The notes under the pieces are model-generated. The model searched no databases. It was not told where the DNA came from and was given only the letters and a program-made list of their open reading frames with translations. Of a stretch of 64,000 bases of DNA, positions 1,405 to 45,171 are shown piece after piece; positions within the stretch are counted from its first letter, which is position 1; every line of letters begins with the position of its first letter. Both the position numbers and the translations under genes were made by a program. The DNA is from Capnocytophaga cynodegmi DSM 19736 (lineage in GTDB: Bacteria > Bacteroidota > Bacteroidia > Flavobacteriales > Flavobacteriaceae), in assembly GCF_000379185.1 (NCBI RefSeq), contig NZ_KB900704.1, positions 62,001-126,000 of the forward strand, read 5' to 3'.

Positions 1405-3177
1405 ATGAATGCTGTTACGCGTTTGTTTGATATTCCTTATCATCAATTGAAAAATTCTCCATCAGAAGCGGCTTTCGTTACAAAATACAACGGAAAATGG
1501 GAAAAAACTTCAACTCAGGAATATATCGATAAATTCAATAAAATTAGTCGTGGGTTGTTGCGTCTGGGTGTCGAAAAAAACGATAAAATTGCTGTCATTT
1601 CGTCAAATAATCGTACAGAATGGCACGTTCTTGATATGGGAATTCTGCAAATTGGAGCTCAAAATGTTCCTGTTTATCCTACCATTTCTTTAGAAGATTA
1701 TGAGTATATATTCAATCACGCTGAATGCAAATATTGCTTTGTTTCAGATAAAGAATTGCTTGACAAAATAACTTCAATTCAAGATAAACTTCCAAATCTT
1801 AAAGGTGTATATACATTTGATGATGTCCCTTATGCCCATAGCTGGAAAGAAATATTAGATTTGGGAGAAGATAGCAGTAATCAAAAGGAAGTAGAAAGAC
1901 TCAAAACCAGCATTCAACCCAATGATTTAGCTACAATTATCTACACTTCAGGAACTACTGCTCGTCCAAAAGGAGTGATGCTTTCACATAATAATATCAT
2001 CTCAAATGTAATTGATTGCCAAGATAGACTACCCGTTGCCCAAGGTTCTCGTTGCTTGAGCTTTCTTCCTGTATGTCACATATTTGAGAGAATGCTGACG
2101 TACTTCTACCAATACAACTTTATGCGAATTTATTTTGCTGAATCTATTGATAAAATGGGTGAAAACATCAAAGAAGTTAAGCCTCACTTAATGACAGTTG
2201 TACCCAGAGTAGTTGAAAAAGTATATGATAAGATTTATGCTAAAGGAGCAGAATTAAAAGGAATATCTAAACGTTTGTTTTTTTGGGCATTAGAATTAGG
2301 GTTGAAATATGAACCGTACGGAGTTAATGGCTGGTGGTACAGTTTCCAATTAGGAATCGCAAGAAAATTAATTTTCAAAAAATGGAAAGAAGCCCTTGGC
2401 GGAGAACTCGAAATGATGGTATCAGGGAGTGCCGCCTTACAACCTCGACTGGCAAGAGTATTTTCGGCTGCGGGGCTCGATATAATGGAAGGTTACGGGC
2501 TTACAGAAACTTCTCCCGTTATTGCTGTTAACAGAAAATCAGGTAAATACTGGAAAATAGGAACTGTTGGTAAACCTATCAATAATATCGAAGTAAAAAT
2601 AGCTGAAGATGGCGAAATACTATGTAAAGGAGCAAATGTTATGTTAGGGTATTACAAAGACCCTGAGCTCACAAAAGATTCTATTACAGATGGTTTCTTC
2701 CATACAGGAGACATAGGCGAACTCGACAGCGACGGTTTTTTAAAAATCACGGATAGAAAAAAAGAAATTTTCAAAACATCAGGAGGAAAATATATCGCCC
2801 CACAAACAATTGAAAATCTACTAAAACAATCTCGGTTTATTGAGCAAGCAATGGTGGTAGGCGAAGGAGAAAAAATGCCAGCAGCCATCATACAACTAAA
2901 TTTCTCTTTTGTTAAAGAATGGGCAAAAAGACGTAACATCAATTTGGGAGAATCAAACGAAGAAGTCATCAAAAACCCAGAACTTTTCAAAAGAATTGAA
3001 AAGGAAGTAGAAAAGGTAAACAATAACTTAGGAAAATGGGAAAAAATAAAACTTTTTGCCTTCACACCCGATGAATGGAGCATTGATACGGGAGAACTTA
3101 CCCCAACATTAAAGCTTAAACGCCGTAATATCAAGGAAAAATATATTCATATTTATAACTCTTTTTACAATCAGTAG
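1405..3177 (+). CDS. Long-chain fatty acid--CoA ligase (AMP-binding)
   Basis: A 590-residue adenylate-forming enzyme that would activate fatty acids to acyl-CoA via an acyl-AMP intermediate. The P-loop-like A3 motif YTSGTTARPKG is at residues 180-190, the A5 motif MEGYGLTETSPV near 365, and the A7/A8 region HTGDIGELDSDGFLKITDRKKEIFK near 430-455, all intact. The length and the insert between A3 and A5 fit the long-chain (FadD/FAA) type of Bacteroidetes. No signal peptide is present, so it is cytosolic or membrane-associated. It precedes ribF and a thiolase on the same strand; the thiolase would consume its beta-oxidation products, though no hydratase/dehydrogenase genes are nearby. Confidence 0.93.
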   Translation: MNAVTRLFDIPYHQLKNSPSEAAFVTKYNGKWEKTSTQEYIDKFNKISRGLLRLGVEKNDKIAVISSNNRTEWHVLDMGILQIGAQNVPVYPTISLEDYEYIFNHAECKYCFVSDKELLDKITSIQDKLPNLKGVYTFDDVPYAHSWKEILDLGEDSSNQKEVERLKTSIQPNDLATIIYTSGTTARPKGVMLSHNNIISNVIDCQDRLPVAQGSRCLSFLPVCHIFERMLTYFYQYNFMRIYFAESIDKMGENIKEVKPHLMTVVPRVVEKVYDKIYAKGAELKGISKRLFFWALELGLKYEPYGVNGWWYSFQLGIARKLIFKKWKEALGGELEMMVSGSAALQPRLARVFSAAGLDIMEGYGLTETSPVIAVNRKSGKYWKIGTVGKPINNIEVKIAEDGEILCKGANVMLGYYKDPELTKDSITDGFFHTGDIGELDSDGFLKITDRKKEIFKTSGGKYIAPQTIENLLKQSRFIEQAMVVGEGEKMPAAIIQLNFSFVKEWAKRRNINLGESNEEVIKNPELFKRIEKEVEKVNNNLGKWEKIKLFAFTPDEWSIDTGELTPTLKLKRRNIKEKYIHIYNSFYNQ

Positions 3178-34202: not shown

Positions 34203-35414
34203 TTAATTATCTTTTCGCATTCTTACCATATAAAATCCGTCGTACCCCGATTGACTGGCAAAAATTTTATCTTCCTCCTCAAAAACAAATCCTCTCCCCT
34301 CTTCTGATTTTAAAAAATCTTCTACTTGCTTTTGGTTTTCAGATGGAAGAATTGAACAAGTAGCATATACTAATTTTCCTCCTGATTTCACCAATTTGCT
34401 GTAATTTTGCAAAATTTCCTGTTGAGTTTTGCGTATTTGTTCTAAAAATTCGGGTTTTAGTTTCCATTTTGCATCAGGATTTCTCCTCAAAACTCCCAAA
34501 CCACTACAAGGGGCATCAATTAAAACTCTATCAGCCATATTTTGCATACGTTTTAGCTGTTTGGAATCAATGAGCTTTGTTTCTATATTAAAAGCTTCAT
34601 TGCGTCGAGCTCTTCTTTTAAGTTCTTGCAACTTATTTTCATAAATATCCATTGCAATTATTTGTCCTTTGTTCTTCATTAAAGAAGCCAAATGCAGAGT
34701 TTTTCCTCCAGCTCCAGCACAAGTGTCCACTACACGCATACCTGAAACCACCTGCAAAAATGGAGCCACTTTTTGCGATGAAGCGTCTTGCACCTCGAAA
34801 AAACCATTTGAAAATGCTTTTGTGGAAAAAACATTAACCCGTTCGGAAAGTACCAAAGCATCAGGATAATTTTTTAACAAATTTGCCTCTACACCTTCAT
34901 CTTCTAACACATTTTTTAATTGTTGTGCGGATATCTTCAGTGTGTTAGCTCGTAAAACCACAGGAGCTAATGTATTGAGTGCGTGAATTTCGTCATTCCA
35001 AAAAAGTTCTCCTAATTCTTCAACTCCAAGATTATCAAGCCAATCAGGTATCGACTCTCTAAATTTTCTAACTTTTGAAAGTTCATCAAATTTTCCTTTT
35101 ATACGACGTTGAGGGGTGTTTTCAAAGTATGACCAATTGGGTAAAGAAATGCCTTTCAAAACCGCCCAAACGGCAAACATTCGGCGTAAATCTTGAACAG
35201 AAAAAGGTTGTTTTACTTCGGCAATCTCAGCATACAAACGCTTCCAACGGACAATTTCATACGTAGTTTCGGCGATAAAAGCCCTATCACGAGCTCCCCA
35301 ACGTTTATCTTTTTTTAGCTGTCTTTCAACTACTTTATCAGCATAATGATTCTCATTGAAAATAAAACTCAACCCTTCAATTACTGCATCTGTCAAATTT
35401 TTATGTAATCGCAT
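34203..35414 (-). CDS. RsmB/NOP2-family RNA cytosine-5 methyltransferase
   Basis: A 403-residue methyltransferase. A NusB-like helical N-terminal region (1-150) precedes the Rossmann domain: VVDTCAGAGGKTLHLASLM (motif I) near 230, DRVLIDAPCSGLGVLRRNPDAKWK near 300 with motif IV cysteine, and VYATCSILPSEN near 350 with the catalytic motif VI cysteine. It should form m5C in rRNA, similar to RsmB at 967, although the exact site cannot be inferred. The downstream gap to 34202 carries no obvious terminator. Confidence 0.93.
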   Translation of the reverse strand: MRLHKNLTDAVIEGLSFIFNENHYADKVVERQLKKDKRWGARDRAFIAETTYEIVRWKRLYAEIAEVKQPFSVQDLRRMFAVWAVLKGISLPNWSYFENTPQRRIKGKFDELSKVRKFRESIPDWLDNLGVEELGELFWNDEIHALNTLAPVVLRANTLKISAQQLKNVLEDEGVEANLLKNYPDALVLSERVNVFSTKAFSNGFFEVQDASSQKVAPFLQVVSGMRVVDTCAGAGGKTLHLASLMKNKGQIIAMDIYENKLQELKRRARRNEAFNIETKLIDSKQLKRMQNMADRVLIDAPCSGLGVLRRNPDAKWKLKPEFLEQIRKTQQEILQNYSKLVKSGGKLVYATCSILPSENQKQVEDFLKSEEGRGFVFEEEDKIFASQSGYDGFYMVRMRKDN

Positions 35415-36469: not shown

Positions 36470-36490
36470 ATACATAAGAATTTTATGTAT
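36470..36490 (+). promoter_or_regulatory. Candidate PadR operator
   Basis: A perfect inverted repeat ATACATAA-GAATT-TTATGTAT. Its right arm overlaps the -7 box TATATTTG (36488-36495) of the padR gene. PadR regulators typically bind ATGT/ACAT-type dyads at their own promoter, so autorepression is likely (inference). Confidence 0.7.
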
Positions 36491-36495
36491 ATTTG
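36488..36495 (+). promoter_or_regulatory. -7 box of the padR operon
   Basis: TATATTTG, 20 bp before the start codon, overlapping the operator palindrome. No clear -33 TTG, as expected for a regulated promoter. Confidence 0.6.
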
Positions 36496-36515
36496 CAGCA
36501 TAAATATATAAGATA

Positions 36516-36860
36516 ATGAAAAAACAAAATTCAGCACTCTATAAAGGAAGTCTGAGTACCATCATTATGAAGCTGTTACAGGACAACGGACGAATGTATG
36601 GCTACGAAATTACACAAAAAGTAAAACAACTAACGCAGGGTGAAATTTCCATAACGGAAGGAGCTTTGTATCCTACACTTCACAAATTGGAAGCCCAAGG
36701 ATTGCTCACTCCCGAAATAGAACAAGTGGATAACCGAATACGAAAATATTACAAAATCACAGAAAGTGGCATTAAAGAGACTGAAAAGCAGATATCTGAA
36801 ATACAAACTTTTATAGAATCTTTACAACGAATTATAACACCAGAAATAAAATTAACCTAA
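36516..36860 (+). CDS. PadR-family transcriptional regulator
   Basis: A 114-residue winged-helix regulator: LYKGSLSTIIMKLLQDNGRMYGYEITQKVKQLTQGEISITEGALYPTLHKLEAQGLL is the family core, followed by the wing and a dimerisation helix (GIKETEKQISEIQTFIESLQRII). The operator-like palindrome at its promoter suggests it represses itself and the three genes that follow. In Flavobacteriia such regulators are commonly followed by a membrane protein with a short helical prefix domain, as seen here in triplicate. Confidence 0.94.
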   Translation: MKKQNSALYKGSLSTIIMKLLQDNGRMYGYEITQKVKQLTQGEISITEGALYPTLHKLEAQGLLTPEIEQVDNRIRKYYKITESGIKETEKQISEIQTFIESLQRIITPEIKLT

Positions 36861-36873
36861 AACCATTCCTTAT

Positions 36874-37587
36874 ATGAAAACCGTAACCCCAAAACAAATC
36901 GAACGTCTGTACGAATTTACGCATCAGTGTCAGGTGAAATACTTTGACGTACAAACTGAACTGGTTGACCATCTGGCAAATGCTATCGAAACGCATTGGC
37001 AAGAATTTCCTGATGACGATTTTGAAATCCTTTTAATACAAGAAGCTCAAAAGTTTGGTACTTTTGGTTTTAAGGAAATTACAGAAGAGAAAGAAAAACA
37101 ACTGCGTAAACGATATAAGAACATTATTTGGAAAGAAATAATCGCTTTTTTCTCGTTCCCCAAAATTATAATGACAATAATTCTGACAATGTCATTATTT
37201 ATTTTGTTAAACCTATCTTCTGACAAAGGAACCGTTGTTAATGTGCTGTTTATGAGTACCTATTTAACAATTATTTCTTTCTTCATCCAACAATATATCA
37301 GGAAGAAAAGACAGAATCAAAACGACAAAAAATGGATTTTGAAGGATATTATTTTTAATAATGGTTGGTGTGCTTCTCTTTTAGTAATCATACTTAACAC
37401 ACTTTCTATGGCTAATATTCATCATACTGAGTATATTGAAAATAAATATTTTATAAGCATATTTTCTTTTGTCATAGTCCTTATTTATATTTTTTGCTAT
37501 TTGGTGTTATTTCATATTCCTTTCAAGAGTGAAAAATATCTTACAGAAACATATAAAGAATACAAAGTAGCAAAACTTACATCGTAA
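36874..37587 (+). CDS. PadR-associated membrane protein, copy A
   Basis: A 237-residue protein. The N-terminal 75 residues form a soluble, acidic helical prefix (TPKQIERLYEFT, then YFDVQTELVDHLANAIETHW), like the HAAS/permease-prefix domains that accompany PadR regulators. Then come four predicted transmembrane helices (about 93-112, 118-136, 160-178, 190-214) with a basic loop RKKRQNQNDKKW. The helix part is unlike copies B and C in sequence but alike in layout. It starts 13 bp after padR. A possible role is sensing or modulating membrane stress with PadR; this is not shown. Function unknown. Confidence 0.85.
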   Translation: MKTVTPKQIERLYEFTHQCQVKYFDVQTELVDHLANAIETHWQEFPDDDFEILLIQEAQKFGTFGFKEITEEKEKQLRKRYKNIIWKEIIAFFSFPKIIMTIILTMSLFILLNLSSDKGTVVNVLFMSTYLTIISFFIQQYIRKKRQNQNDKKWILKDIIFNNGWCASLLVIILNTLSMANIHHTEYIENKYFISIFSFVIVLIYIFCYLVLFHIPFKSEKYLTETYKEYKVAKLTS

Positions 37588-37687
37588 AAGTAATGCGAGT
37601 TTGTTACAAGTCAGAAAATTACAATGAAAAGTAATTCCGAATAGAAATACCCAAATAAAAACACATAAACTAAAATCGAAAAATTTT

Positions 37688-38383
37688 ATGAAAACCATAA
37701 CCCCAAAGCAAATCGAACGTCTGTATGAATTTACGCGTCACCATTACGTGGAATACTTTGACGTACAAACTGAACTGGTTGACCATTTAGCAAATGCTAT
37801 CGAAACGTATTGGCAAAAATTTCCTGATGACGATTTTGAAACGGCTTTGCAGAAAGAATTCCGTAAATTCGGGGTGTTTGGGTTTAATGATATTGTGGAG
37901 GAGAAAACAAAACAGATGGAAAAATTGTACAAAAGAGTGCTTTGGAAGAAAAAAATTGAGTTCTTCACCTTTCCTAAAATACTACTTACTCTTTTTATAT
38001 CAGCTGTAATATATACATTACTTTCCGCTTTCAATACTATGTGGATACCTTTCTTAGGAATTATCATTGCGTTTTATATTTTCAAAGGTGCCATTTTTAT
38101 GAAAACTAAATCTATTTACAAAAGAAAATCAAACAAACAATGGCTCTTTAAAAACATCTTTCTGTATCAGGATAATTATCCTTTGTTGCTACATTCTTCC
38201 GTGCACACCATATCTTATTATTGGCTGTTCGTTCAAAAGCAGCATATCCCTATTTTATTTATTGTTATAGGCTTTACACTTCAATTTATCTACACGTATA
38301 TTATAAGCTATCATATTCCGAAAAATAGTGACCGCTACTTTCTGGAAATGTTCCCCGAATACAAATTTGAACTCTTAAACTAA
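37688..38383 (+). CDS. PadR-associated membrane protein, copy B
   Basis: A 231-residue paralogue of the neighbours on both sides. Its first 75 residues match copy C almost residue for residue (LYEFTRHHYVEYFDVQTELVDHLANAIE) and continue identical in ALQKEFRKFGVFGF; the four-helix membrane part (from about residue 97) has its own sequence. The basic loop between helices 2 and 3 is FMKTKSIYKRKSNKQW. It lies 100 bp after copy A and 9 bp before copy C. Confidence 0.85.
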   Translation: MKTITPKQIERLYEFTRHHYVEYFDVQTELVDHLANAIETYWQKFPDDDFETALQKEFRKFGVFGFNDIVEEKTKQMEKLYKRVLWKKKIEFFTFPKILLTLFISAVIYTLLSAFNTMWIPFLGIIIAFYIFKGAIFMKTKSIYKRKSNKQWLFKNIFLYQDNYPLLLHSSVHTISYYWLFVQKQHIPILFIVIGFTLQFIYTYIISYHIPKNSDRYFLEMFPEYKFELLN

Positions 38384-38392
38384 GTTTCTACT

Positions 38393-39076
38393 ATGAAAAA
38401 AGTAACCCCAAAACAAATCGAACGTCTGTATGAATTTACACGTCAGCATTACGTGGAATACTTTGACGTACAAACTGAACTGGTTGACCATCTGGCAAAT
38501 GCTATCGAAACGCATTGGCAAGAATTTCCTGACGACGATTTTGAAACGGCCTTGCAGAAAGAATTCCGAAAATTCGGGGTGTTTGGATTTATGGATATAT
38601 TAGAAGAAAAAACCAAACAAATGAATAAACGTTACAATCGCATTCTTTGGCAAAAAACTAAAGAGTTCTTCACTATCCCGAAAGTACTGCTAACCTTATG
38701 CATCGGACTTGCTTTCTATACACTGCTTTCTTTGTTAGGACACGTAAAAATACTTATTCCGTTGATTTTATGTACTATTTTCATTGTTTATGTTATTAGC
38801 TTTATCAGAAACAAACGTCTTTTTAAGAAAAGTACCAATAAGAGATGGCTTTTTGAAGATATTATTATGCAATCAAACGGATATGGCTTTACAATGTTTT
38901 TTCCTTTGCAAATGAGTATCCAATTTGCAAAGCATCTTCCTGAAAACCAAACATTCATCGCTTTTTGTTCTGCCTTTTTTGCTTTTTACATTGTCTTGAT
39001 GTATGTGTCAGCCGTGTACTTACCAAAAAACAGAGAAAAATACCTTTCAGAAATTTATCCCCAGTACGTCGATTAA
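38393..39076 (+). CDS. PadR-associated membrane protein, copy C
   Basis: A 227-residue paralogue. The DNA segment 38457-38532 is identical over 76 bp to 36938-37013 in copy A, although the rest of the two genes is strongly diverged. The N-terminal prefix domain is followed by four transmembrane helices with a basic loop RNKRLFKKSTNKRW at the same position as in A and B. The C-terminal ending (LPKNREKYLSEIYPQYVD) resembles that of B (IPKNSDRYFLEMFPEYKF). Last gene of the putative padR operon. Confidence 0.85.
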   Translation: MKKVTPKQIERLYEFTRQHYVEYFDVQTELVDHLANAIETHWQEFPDDDFETALQKEFRKFGVFGFMDILEEKTKQMNKRYNRILWQKTKEFFTIPKVLLTLCIGLAFYTLLSLLGHVKILIPLILCTIFIVYVISFIRNKRLFKKSTNKRWLFEDIIMQSNGYGFTMFFPLQMSIQFAKHLPENQTFIAFCSAFFAFYIVLMYVSAVYLPKNREKYLSEIYPQYVD

Positions 39077-39312: not shown

Positions 39313-40542
39313 ATGATGAGAAAACATCTATTTTTAGGAGTTATGTTACTACTTATGGTTACAAACTCCCTCGCACAACGAGCTACAGCCGAAATACCAC
39401 CTATGGGGTTTATGACTTGGAACTATTTTGCTGAGAACATTTCTGAAAGTCAACTCAAAGAAGTTGTTGATGCAATGGTAAGTACAGGATTACGTGATGC
39501 TGGGTACAACTTTATTTTTATTGATGATGGTTGGCAAGGAGGAAGAGACGCTAAAAATAATCTTATTCCTGACCCTAAAAAATTTCCTTCAGGAATGAAG
39601 GCTTTTGCCGACTATGTTCATAGTAAAGGAATGAAATTGGGAATTTACTCTAACGCTGCTGAACTTACTTGTGCAGGTTATACTGGAAGTTATGGCTTTG
39701 AGGAAAAAGATGCTAAAACTTTTGCTCAATGGGGCATTGATTACCTGAAATATGATTACTGTCACGCTCCTTCCGATTGGAAAGTTGCTATTGAGCGTTA
39801 TGAAAAGATGGCAATCGCTTTACAAAACAGTGGTAGAGAAATCACTTTTGCTATCTGTGAATGGGGTGACCGAGAGCCTTGGTTGTGGGGGAAAAAAGCG
39901 GGAGGACAACTTTGGAGAACCACAGCCGACGTTCGTGATAAATGGAAAAGCATAGAACCTTACAAGAATGCAAAAGAACTTCACAGAGTAGGAGCAGGTA
40001 TTTTAGACATTGTGAATCGAAATGCAGAACTCAGCTCTTATGCAGGAATCAACGGTTGGAACGATGCCGATATGCTCGTTATTGGATTATATGGCAAGAA
40101 AGGACCTTCTGGTGATTTAGGAGGTGTAGGTTGCACCGATACAGAATATCGTTCACAAATGTCGCTTTGGTGTTTAATGGCTGCCCCTCTAATGATTACC
40201 TGTGATGTCAGAAATATGAACGAAACCACACACAAAATCTTAATGAATCACGATGTAATTAAAATTAATCAAGATAAACTTGGTAAACAAGCCTCACGAA
40301 TCGTGAATAGCAACGACTGGCAAATATTCCTAAAACCATTGCAAAATGGAGATATAGCTATCGGGATTTTAAATACTGCTGATAATAAACGTAGCTTCAA
40401 TCTGAAATTAGATGAATTAGGAATCACGGGCAAAACAACCGCCAAAGACCTTTGGACGAAAAAAGCATCGGCTATTAAAAACAACCAAATGAAGATTACG
40501 GCAGACTCGCACGAAACAATTTTGTTACGTCTTTCAAAATAA
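39313..40542 (+). CDS. GH27 alpha-galactosidase
   Basis: A 409-residue exported glycosidase that releases terminal alpha-galactose (or alpha-N-acetylgalactosamine in some members). Signal peptide to SLAQ (residue 21). The barrel begins PPMGFMTWNYF; IFIDDGWQGGRDA lies near 68-80. The nucleophile is D148 in YLKYDYC and the acid/base is D206 in TTADVRDKW, as in the family. ICEWGDREPW near 181 (in place of the usual SLCEWG/SCEW variants) is the loop that separates galactosidase from N-acetylgalactosaminidase activity, so the substrate needs testing. A C-terminal beta-sandwich (from about 320) completes it. Confidence 0.92.
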   Translation: MMRKHLFLGVMLLLMVTNSLAQRATAEIPPMGFMTWNYFAENISESQLKEVVDAMVSTGLRDAGYNFIFIDDGWQGGRDAKNNLIPDPKKFPSGMKAFADYVHSKGMKLGIYSNAAELTCAGYTGSYGFEEKDAKTFAQWGIDYLKYDYCHAPSDWKVAIERYEKMAIALQNSGREITFAICEWGDREPWLWGKKAGGQLWRTTADVRDKWKSIEPYKNAKELHRVGAGILDIVNRNAELSSYAGINGWNDADMLVIGLYGKKGPSGDLGGVGCTDTEYRSQMSLWCLMAAPLMITCDVRNMNETTHKILMNHDVIKINQDKLGKQASRIVNSNDWQIFLKPLQNGDIAIGILNTADNKRSFNLKLDELGITGKTTAKDLWTKKASAIKNNQMKITADSHETILLRLSK

Positions 40543-42419: not shown

Positions 42420-42469
42420 ATAGCTTTTGGCACGAAAAATATTTTCTTTCAGTAGATAGGAAAAAAACT

Positions 42470-42540
42470 GACGTGAGAAAAAAAATTTCTTAACGTCAAG
42501 AAATTTTTTTTCTCACGTCAAGAAATTTTTAAATTGACGG
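42470..42540. repeat. Perfect 22-bp inverted repeat with a third partial copy
   Basis: The left arm (42470-42491: GACGTGAG, eight A, TTTCTT) is an exact reverse complement of the right arm (42498-42519), around a loop AACGTC. The string ACGTCAAGAAATTTTT appears at 42493 and again at 42515, and TTGACG (inverse orientation) follows at 42534. The rest of the 323-bp gap between 42371 and 42693 contains a terminator and a promoter -7 box only. Confidence 0.9.
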
Positions 42541-44403: not shown

Positions 44404-45171
44404 ATGGAACTAAAACTATCAAAACCGATTTGTTTCTTCGATTTGGAAACCACTGGAACAGACATTACTAAAGACCGCATTGTTGAAATCTCCATACTAA
44501 AAGTATATCCTAATGGGAATAAAGAAAGTAAAACGTGGTTGGTAAATCCTACAATTCCGATACCCAAAGGAGCAAGTGATGTACACGGAATTACCAATGA
44601 ACGCGTAGCCAACGAACCCACTTTCAAGGAACTTGCCAAAACCATTCATAATATGATTAAAGATTCGGACTTGGCAGGTTACAATTCCGACCGCTTCGAT
44701 ATTCCTCTTTTAGCGGAAGAAATGCTCCGTGCCGACGTCGATTTTGATTTAGGAAACCGCGTAACGGTAGATGTACAAACCATCTTCCACAAAATGGAAC
44801 AACGCACCCTGAGTGCCGCTTATAAGTTCTACTGCGGAAAAACATTGGACAACGCGCACTCAGCAGCAGCGGACACCAATGCCACCTATGAGATACTAAA
44901 ATCACAACTCGACCGATACAGCGAACTCGAAAACGATATGAAAAAACTCAGCGAGTTCACCACTCGAAAACAAGCGGTAGACTTTGCTGGATTTATTGCA
45001 CTGAACGACAAAAATGAAACCATTTTCACCTTCGGAAAGCACAAAGGCAGAAAAGTAGAAGAAATACTGGAAGAAGAACCTGGTTACTTCGGCTGGATTT
45101 TGAATGCTGACTTTCCGCTGTACACCAAAAAGGTACTAACAGCCATCAAACTAAAAGGATTTTCAAAATAA
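44404..45171 (+). CDS. DnaQ-type 3'-5' exonuclease with ExoX-like C-terminal domain
   Basis: A 255-residue DEDDh exonuclease. ExoI motif FFDLETTGTD gives D13 and E15; ExoII is GYNSDRFDIPLL with D99; ExoIII is AHSAAADTNATY with H152 and D157, so all catalytic residues are present. The C-terminal region (about 200-255, FTFGKHKGRKVEEILEEEPGYFGWILNADFP) matches the short domain found at the end of exodeoxyribonuclease X-like proteins. It may act in repair or nucleic-acid turnover; polymerase proofreading is less likely because no polymerase gene is nearby. Confidence 0.9.
   Translation: MELKLSKPICFFDLETTGTDITKDRIVEISILKVYPNGNKESKTWLVNPTIPIPKGASDVHGITNERVANEPTFKELAKTIHNMIKDSDLAGYNSDRFDIPLLAEEMLRADVDFDLGNRVTVDVQTIFHKMEQRTLSAAYKFYCGKTLDNAHSAAADTNATYEILKSQLDRYSELENDMKKLSEFTTRKQAVDFAGFIALNDKNETIFTFGKHKGRKVEEILEEEPGYFGWILNADFPLYTKKVLTAIKLKGFSK

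Follow-up and report, generated by a model that had tools for sequence, protein, structure and literature searches.

Why should three neighbouring genes be almost identical at their 5' ends, silent sites included, and strongly diverged thereafter? The question was raised by a padR locus in a Capnocytophaga genome of 2.66 Mb (G000), which lies in the stretch of 64,000 nucleotides that was analysed as a whole and is called the window here. An earlier note had reported three paralogues after padR, and these were reproduced with the lengths listed below. The genes, named A, B and C, are located downstream of padR on the same strand, and no further copies of them were found elsewhere in the G000 genome.

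36470-36490, + strand: predicted PadR operator, palindrome ATACATAA-GAATT-TTATGTAT, near-identical before padR in most other Capnocytophaga/Flavobacteriaceae loci examined
36488-36495, + strand: putative -7 promoter element of Bacteroidota type, TATATTTG, with 3 bases in common with the operator; conserved beside the palindrome in most relatives
36516-36860, + strand: padR, PadR-family transcriptional regulator of 114 aa (PF03551, 74.2 bits against a cut-off of 27)
36874-37587, + strand: gene A, 237 aa, three-helix head followed by a membrane tail of four helices, tail type A (found in G003 and G006 too)
36874-37029, + strand: homogenised head of A, codons 1-52, change point at codon 52 against both B and C
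37688-38383, + strand: gene B, 231 aa, layout as in gene A, tail type B (found in C. canis G006 too)
37688-37888, + strand: head of B, homogenised with that of C over codons 1-67
38393-39076, + strand: gene C, 227 aa, tail type C1
38393-38593, + strand: head of C, homogenised with that of B over codons 1-67

Silent sites in heads and tails

The first ~65-75 residues of all three proteins had been described as nearly identical. This held for B and C, where the change point at codon 67 was close to the ~75 residues claimed, but not for A, whose head was homogenised in part only: its change point against both other genes was at codon 52, and residues 17-22 as well as everything past about residue 51 were A-specific. 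The stretches 36938-37013 and 38457-38532 were identical at 76 of 76 positions as the note had stated, and the match was maximal, with a mismatch at either side.

By the Nei-Gojobori method the proportion of differing silent sites (pS) in codons 1-50 was 0.14 for A-B, 0.12 for A-C and 0.19 for B-C, against saturated values of 0.73-0.78 among the three tails. At positions encoding the same amino acid the codon was identical in 91-93% of cases in the heads and in 41-58% in the tails (Fisher p = 2e-6 to 5e-4). Silent divergence along the genes, which the earlier note had wanted checked, was thus non-uniform, with about 0.75 in the tail, and took the form that gene conversion leaves, a local tract of low silent divergence with a saturated flank. 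The mosaic pattern of homogenised heads and diverged tails in the three paralogues was confirmed.

The strong conservation of the head protein would agree with ordinary old duplication in which the head is under purifying selection, or with codon bias or an RNA element constraining synonymous sites at the 5' end. The silent sites tell against this explanation. The heads of the single-copy genes in G016 and G019 were saturated at silent sites against all other Capnocytophaga heads (0.69-0.94), and because of this no silent-site constraint is seen at the 5' end. When one head was compared across different loci as a control, the mean codon identity was 0.52 (99th percentile 0.76; 2937 pairs), compared with 0.91-0.98 for heads sharing an array, either in the window genome or in C. 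canis. Synonymous constraint was ruled out by these two results, which point to recent shared DNA ancestry as the origin of the low silent divergence in the heads. According to the earlier note, single-copy orthologues of each tail with equally conserved heads would favour old duplication. In part this was found, as all tail types except C1 have an orthologue and the head protein is widely conserved, but the silent-site pattern is not explained thereby. Old duplication or synonymous constraint is already contradicted by the present results and we consider it very improbable.

Head and tail histories among Capnocytophaga species

Twenty Capnocytophaga genomes were compared, one genome per species, and the array was present in six of them. 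The letters for tail types are labels coined in the present analysis.

G000 (window genome): tail types A, B, C1
G003: tail types A, D, C2
G006 (C. canis): tail types A, B, D, C2
G008 (C. felis): tail type C3
G019: tail type C2-like, single copy
G016: tail type x, single copy

Across species the tails clustered strictly by type, and the heads did not. The C1 protein of G000 and the C2 protein of G003 had heads with a pS of 0.03 and saturated tails with a pS of 0.71; the head of C was 95-100% identical to that of the third gene of G003 over most of the first ~70 codons. For the D proteins of G003 and G006 the values were 0.22 in the heads and 0.05 in the tails. In the head tree the C1 protein of G000 and the C2 protein of G003 were sisters (97/93), a pairing rejected by the tail data (AU p = 0.0009), and the D-type grouping was in turn rejected by the head data (p = 0.0096). 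Judged from these trees and distances, head and tail have separate histories.

Tails common to different species differed at 4-10% of silent sites, compared with 73-88% for ordinary genes. For tails D and C2 the pS between G003 and G006 was 0.04-0.05, and three ordinary genes gave 0.73-0.88 for G003-G006 and 0.74-0.84 for G000-G006. The whole A-B stretch was 95% identical between G000 and G006, against 69-77% for ordinary genes. Being far closer than ordinary genes, tails D and C2 and the A-B stretch have moved recently between species. The padR gene itself was mosaic between G000 and G006. The chromosomal site was common to G000, G003 and G008, and the surroundings differed in G006, G016 and G019.

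The pS among heads was 0.12-0.19 within G000, 0.03-0.14 within G006 and 0.19-0.33 within G003, and 0.03-0.34 between these genomes, each species being represented by one genome. Since heads within a genome were no closer to each other than among G000, G003 and G006, exchange between species probably makes up a large part of the process. Recombination confined to the 5' end was strongly supported, by the non-uniform silent divergence, the discordant head and tail trees and the freedom of silent sites in other species; the ongoing gene conversion proposed in the earlier note was incomplete as an account, for it left out the interspecies component. That recombination limited to the head, partly between species, lies behind the pattern is well supported by the sequence comparisons.

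Some observations were also made in the neighbourhood of the array. A glycosidase-like gene (window 39313-40542, GH27-type by eye) directly follows it. In G003 and G008 the site lacks this gene, and C. canis G006 has a copy (C188:948-2225) with 94% identity beside its HU-like gene, which suggests that the 3' flank was also exchanged between species. At about 42469-42529 of the window a sequence of ~60 bp, probably a palindromic repeat element, matched both strands at many places in several Capnocytophaga genomes. Window positions 44404-45171 had 97.4% nucleotide identity to G016, whereas the rsmB-like gene at 34203-35414 had only 73%, which points to another recent transfer between Capnocytophaga species.

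Protein domains and the predicted operator

The structure model of the gene C product (pLDDT 90.8) placed the head helices at residues 6-18, 24-44 and 50-91 and the membrane helices at 97-115, 118-145, 161-177 and 186-212. A four-helix layout with a basic loop, noted earlier for all three proteins, agreed with this confident model and with the basic residues found between helices 2 and 3 in A, B and C. A model of the head alone likewise gave three helices (pLDDT 82). The homogenised part spans helices 1-2 and, for B-C, also the start of helix 3. E29, D32 and H33 (C numbering) were invariant or nearly so in 91 heads. Searches of the PDB by sequence and by fold, with the full protein and with the head, gave no significant match.

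When a profile of the 91 heads was aligned to that of permease prefix domain 1, hhalign returned a probability of 89% (E = 2e-6, 58 columns). The model of this domain, NF038403, matched 14 of the 91 heads directly at E<=0.1, the best at 4.9e-7; it did not match A, B or C, which stay below its curated score of 30 bits, and an array member from G198 reached 24.4 bits. Genes with prefix domain 1 had a padR-like gene nearby in 16 of 22 loci. The head thus resembles, and is probably related to, this PadR-partner domain, at scores below curated membership. Both have an N-terminal helical head with an E-L-x-x-H-L motif and a padR-like neighbour; prefix domain 1 proteins carry a large permease, whereas the window proteins have 227-237 aa in all and a tail of ~140 residues with four helices.

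The head had been called HAAS-like before, which was right in kind, but its detectable relative is permease prefix domain 1 and not HAAS. HAAS-PadR systems, for which fusions to 4TM domains have been reported, similarly pair a PadR with an adjoining membrane protein whose N-terminus forms a helical cytoplasmic domain (PMC11237479). The window heads differ from them: they had no Pfam match to PF22564, hhalign gave <1% against HAAS-like heads of the same genus (two head alignments), and the GxP motif that kinks helix 3 was absent, with FGVFGF or FGTFGF at residues 61-66 instead. The three consecutive helices of HAAS were present by count only, with no fold match in the PDB. With the Pfam, hhalign and GxP results all negative, HAAS membership was not supported. 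A second padR of G000 (C5:50482-51047) is followed by a long gene whose N-terminal part is HAAS-like (PF22564 hit below threshold), and this pair was conserved in most Capnocytophaga genomes examined.

Against Pfam the tails matched no family above its cut-off. Sub-threshold matches to STING_TM, DUF3671 and Na_Ca_ex were inconsistent and were taken as noise from hydrophobic composition. For orthologous tails the dN/dS, calculated from rounded values, was 0.19-0.38. By this measure, an average along the whole tail, selection on the tails is purifying, the diversifying selection suggested earlier is not supported, and the divergence between tail types is simply old.

Upstream of padR, TACAT-N9-ATGTA at 36471-36489, with its arms in the order ACAT..ATGT, forms a PadR-type inverted repeat at the gene's own promoter. 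The adjoining TATATTTG we take to be a -7 element from the TAnnTTTG consensus of Bacteroidota. A genome search with TACATN9ATGTA for a wider regulon gave 6 matches, and the full palindrome occurred only at 36470-36490. In the Flavobacteriaceae locus L027, half-sites upstream of padR at 3037 were three in a row (TATACATAA..TTATGTATA..TTATGTATA), possibly a double operator. Inverted repeats of the ATGT/ACAT type, spaced by 8-10 bases, are known to be used by PadR proteins (PMC3506622), and those of Listeria are repressors of the operons that encode them (PMC6624303). Together with the conserved promoter palindrome this makes autorepression of padR, as predicted from the operator, likely.

Recurrence across Flavobacteriaceae and possible function

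A profile of these proteins found members beyond the family, elsewhere in the order, and within Flavobacteriaceae in 99 of 397 genomes; padR with 1-4 such genes is present in roughly one Flavobacteriaceae genome in four. Among 91 fetched loci a padR relative was present within the stretch in 89, and the copy number was one in 22 loci, two in 36, three in 20 and four in 13, counts that are no population estimate as the loci were picked as rich in multi-copy arrays. The survey of copy number and tail variety proposed in the earlier note thus makes the window one case among many, and the triplication in itself is not unusual, tandem padR-linked sets of 2-4 copies being common in the family. Broken or truncated copies were seen in the arrays L132 (G295), L042 (G036) and L120 (G404), which suggests turnover of members.

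Strong homogenisation of heads recurred in two other genera, in G279, whose heads belong to another class, and in the congeneric G313 and G094, with change points at codons 56-63, head pS of 0.16-0.19 and tail pS of 0.64-0.85. Weaker or less certain cases include G422, G746, G618 and G697. Codon identity was head-biased at p<0.05 in 36 of 158 within-array pairs (about 8 expected) and tail-biased in none, a descriptive count since pairs inside one array are not independent. Many arrays had heads only ~30% identical inside one operon, and because such arrays persist, matching heads are not universally required. On the sequences compared, the process is a recurrent one, found in at least three genera, and the window holds one case of it.

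For the function of the locus we tentatively favour, at slightly less than an even chance, an autorepressed padR operon with a modular array of membrane proteins, in which the heads are homogenised by recombination for one PadR and the tails differ in specificity. By analogy with the B. cereus pair BC4206-BC4207 described below, we think it most likely that the four-helix tails would sense membrane-active compounds or protect the membrane from them, with every copy coupled to the single PadR. PadR would bind the palindrome at the promoter of its own gene. On contact of a tail with such a compound, for example a bacteriocin of oral competitors, the cytoplasmic heads would pass a signal to PadR or retain it, and derepression would yield more tails, which would also protect the membrane. 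Heads would be overwritten, and tails of different specificity would be kept, gained, lost or exchanged. We propose that the need of every copy to function with the same PadR keeps the head conserved enough to be a recombination anchor; the homogenisation itself may come either from selection for a common PadR interface or from passive conversion of the best-conserved segment. The wider proposal of a receptor array throughout the family, with one PadR, 1-4 proteins, heads actively kept interchangeable and tails as an exchangeable specificity repertoire common to species, seems to us rather unlikely. If true, it would give bacterial gene regulation a counterpart to constant/variable receptor families.

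Two further explanations accept the recombination and differ on its cause. In passive concerted evolution the head would be the slowest-evolving part of old tandem duplicates and the only one identical enough to recombine, homogenisation being a neutral by-product. Conservation of the head protein from locus to locus (61% identity on average), the ending of tracts where identity drops and the persistence of arrays with dissimilar heads all suit this explanation; the recurrence in different head classes and the lack of any reverse case among the 158 pairs fit it and the preferred reading alike. We regard it as doubtful, with a real share of the probability. A recombinational cassette store was also considered, whose heads would serve as anchors for crossovers and whose tails would pass from species to species under frequency-dependent selection, as toxin tips or immunity genes do. 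It draws on the variation in copy number (1-4) and tail type (A, B, C1, C2, C3, D, x) among the six Capnocytophaga species, on the near-identical tails common to distant species and on the differing chromosomal surroundings in G006, G016 and G019. Yet orthologous tails are under purifying selection by their dN/dS, and other genes, such as 44404-45171, also move between these species, so that the array locus may not be special. The cassette store appears improbable, more so than passive evolution.

PadR operons with a helical-prefix membrane partner are widespread, and how the partner signals to PadR is unsettled. The present family is a natural experiment in which recombination holds the heads equal and the tails are left free; from it one would predict that the head faces PadR and that specificity lies in the tail. 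It also shows cleanly how recombination, partly between oral species, can be restricted to a single protein domain.

Systems in which a constant head and a variable tail recombine include polymorphic toxin tips and surface antigen families. They share with the present array a common 5' segment and exchangeable 3' segments, but the window has intact, co-oriented membrane proteins in one regulated operon, and a search of the genome found no silent cassettes. A literature search on 5'-limited conversion in bacterial tandem paralogues gave no paper combining all these features, which is not proof of absence. The Listeria LstR/LltR operons resemble the locus in layout, with an autoregulated PadR and membrane-protein genes, two of them in the lltR operon; a head/tail mosaic is not reported in the parts of that study consulted (PMC6624303). 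In B. cereus, the PadR BC4206 and the four-TM protein BC4207 are induced by enterocin AS-48 and give resistance to AS-48, not to nisin or bacitracin (PMC2774856). There padR adjoins a single membrane gene, unlike the three of the window. Among experimentally tested systems this pair is the nearest in design: the gene beside padR encodes a four-segment membrane protein, and an operator-like inverted repeat lies at the promoter (PMC2774856, PMC3506622).
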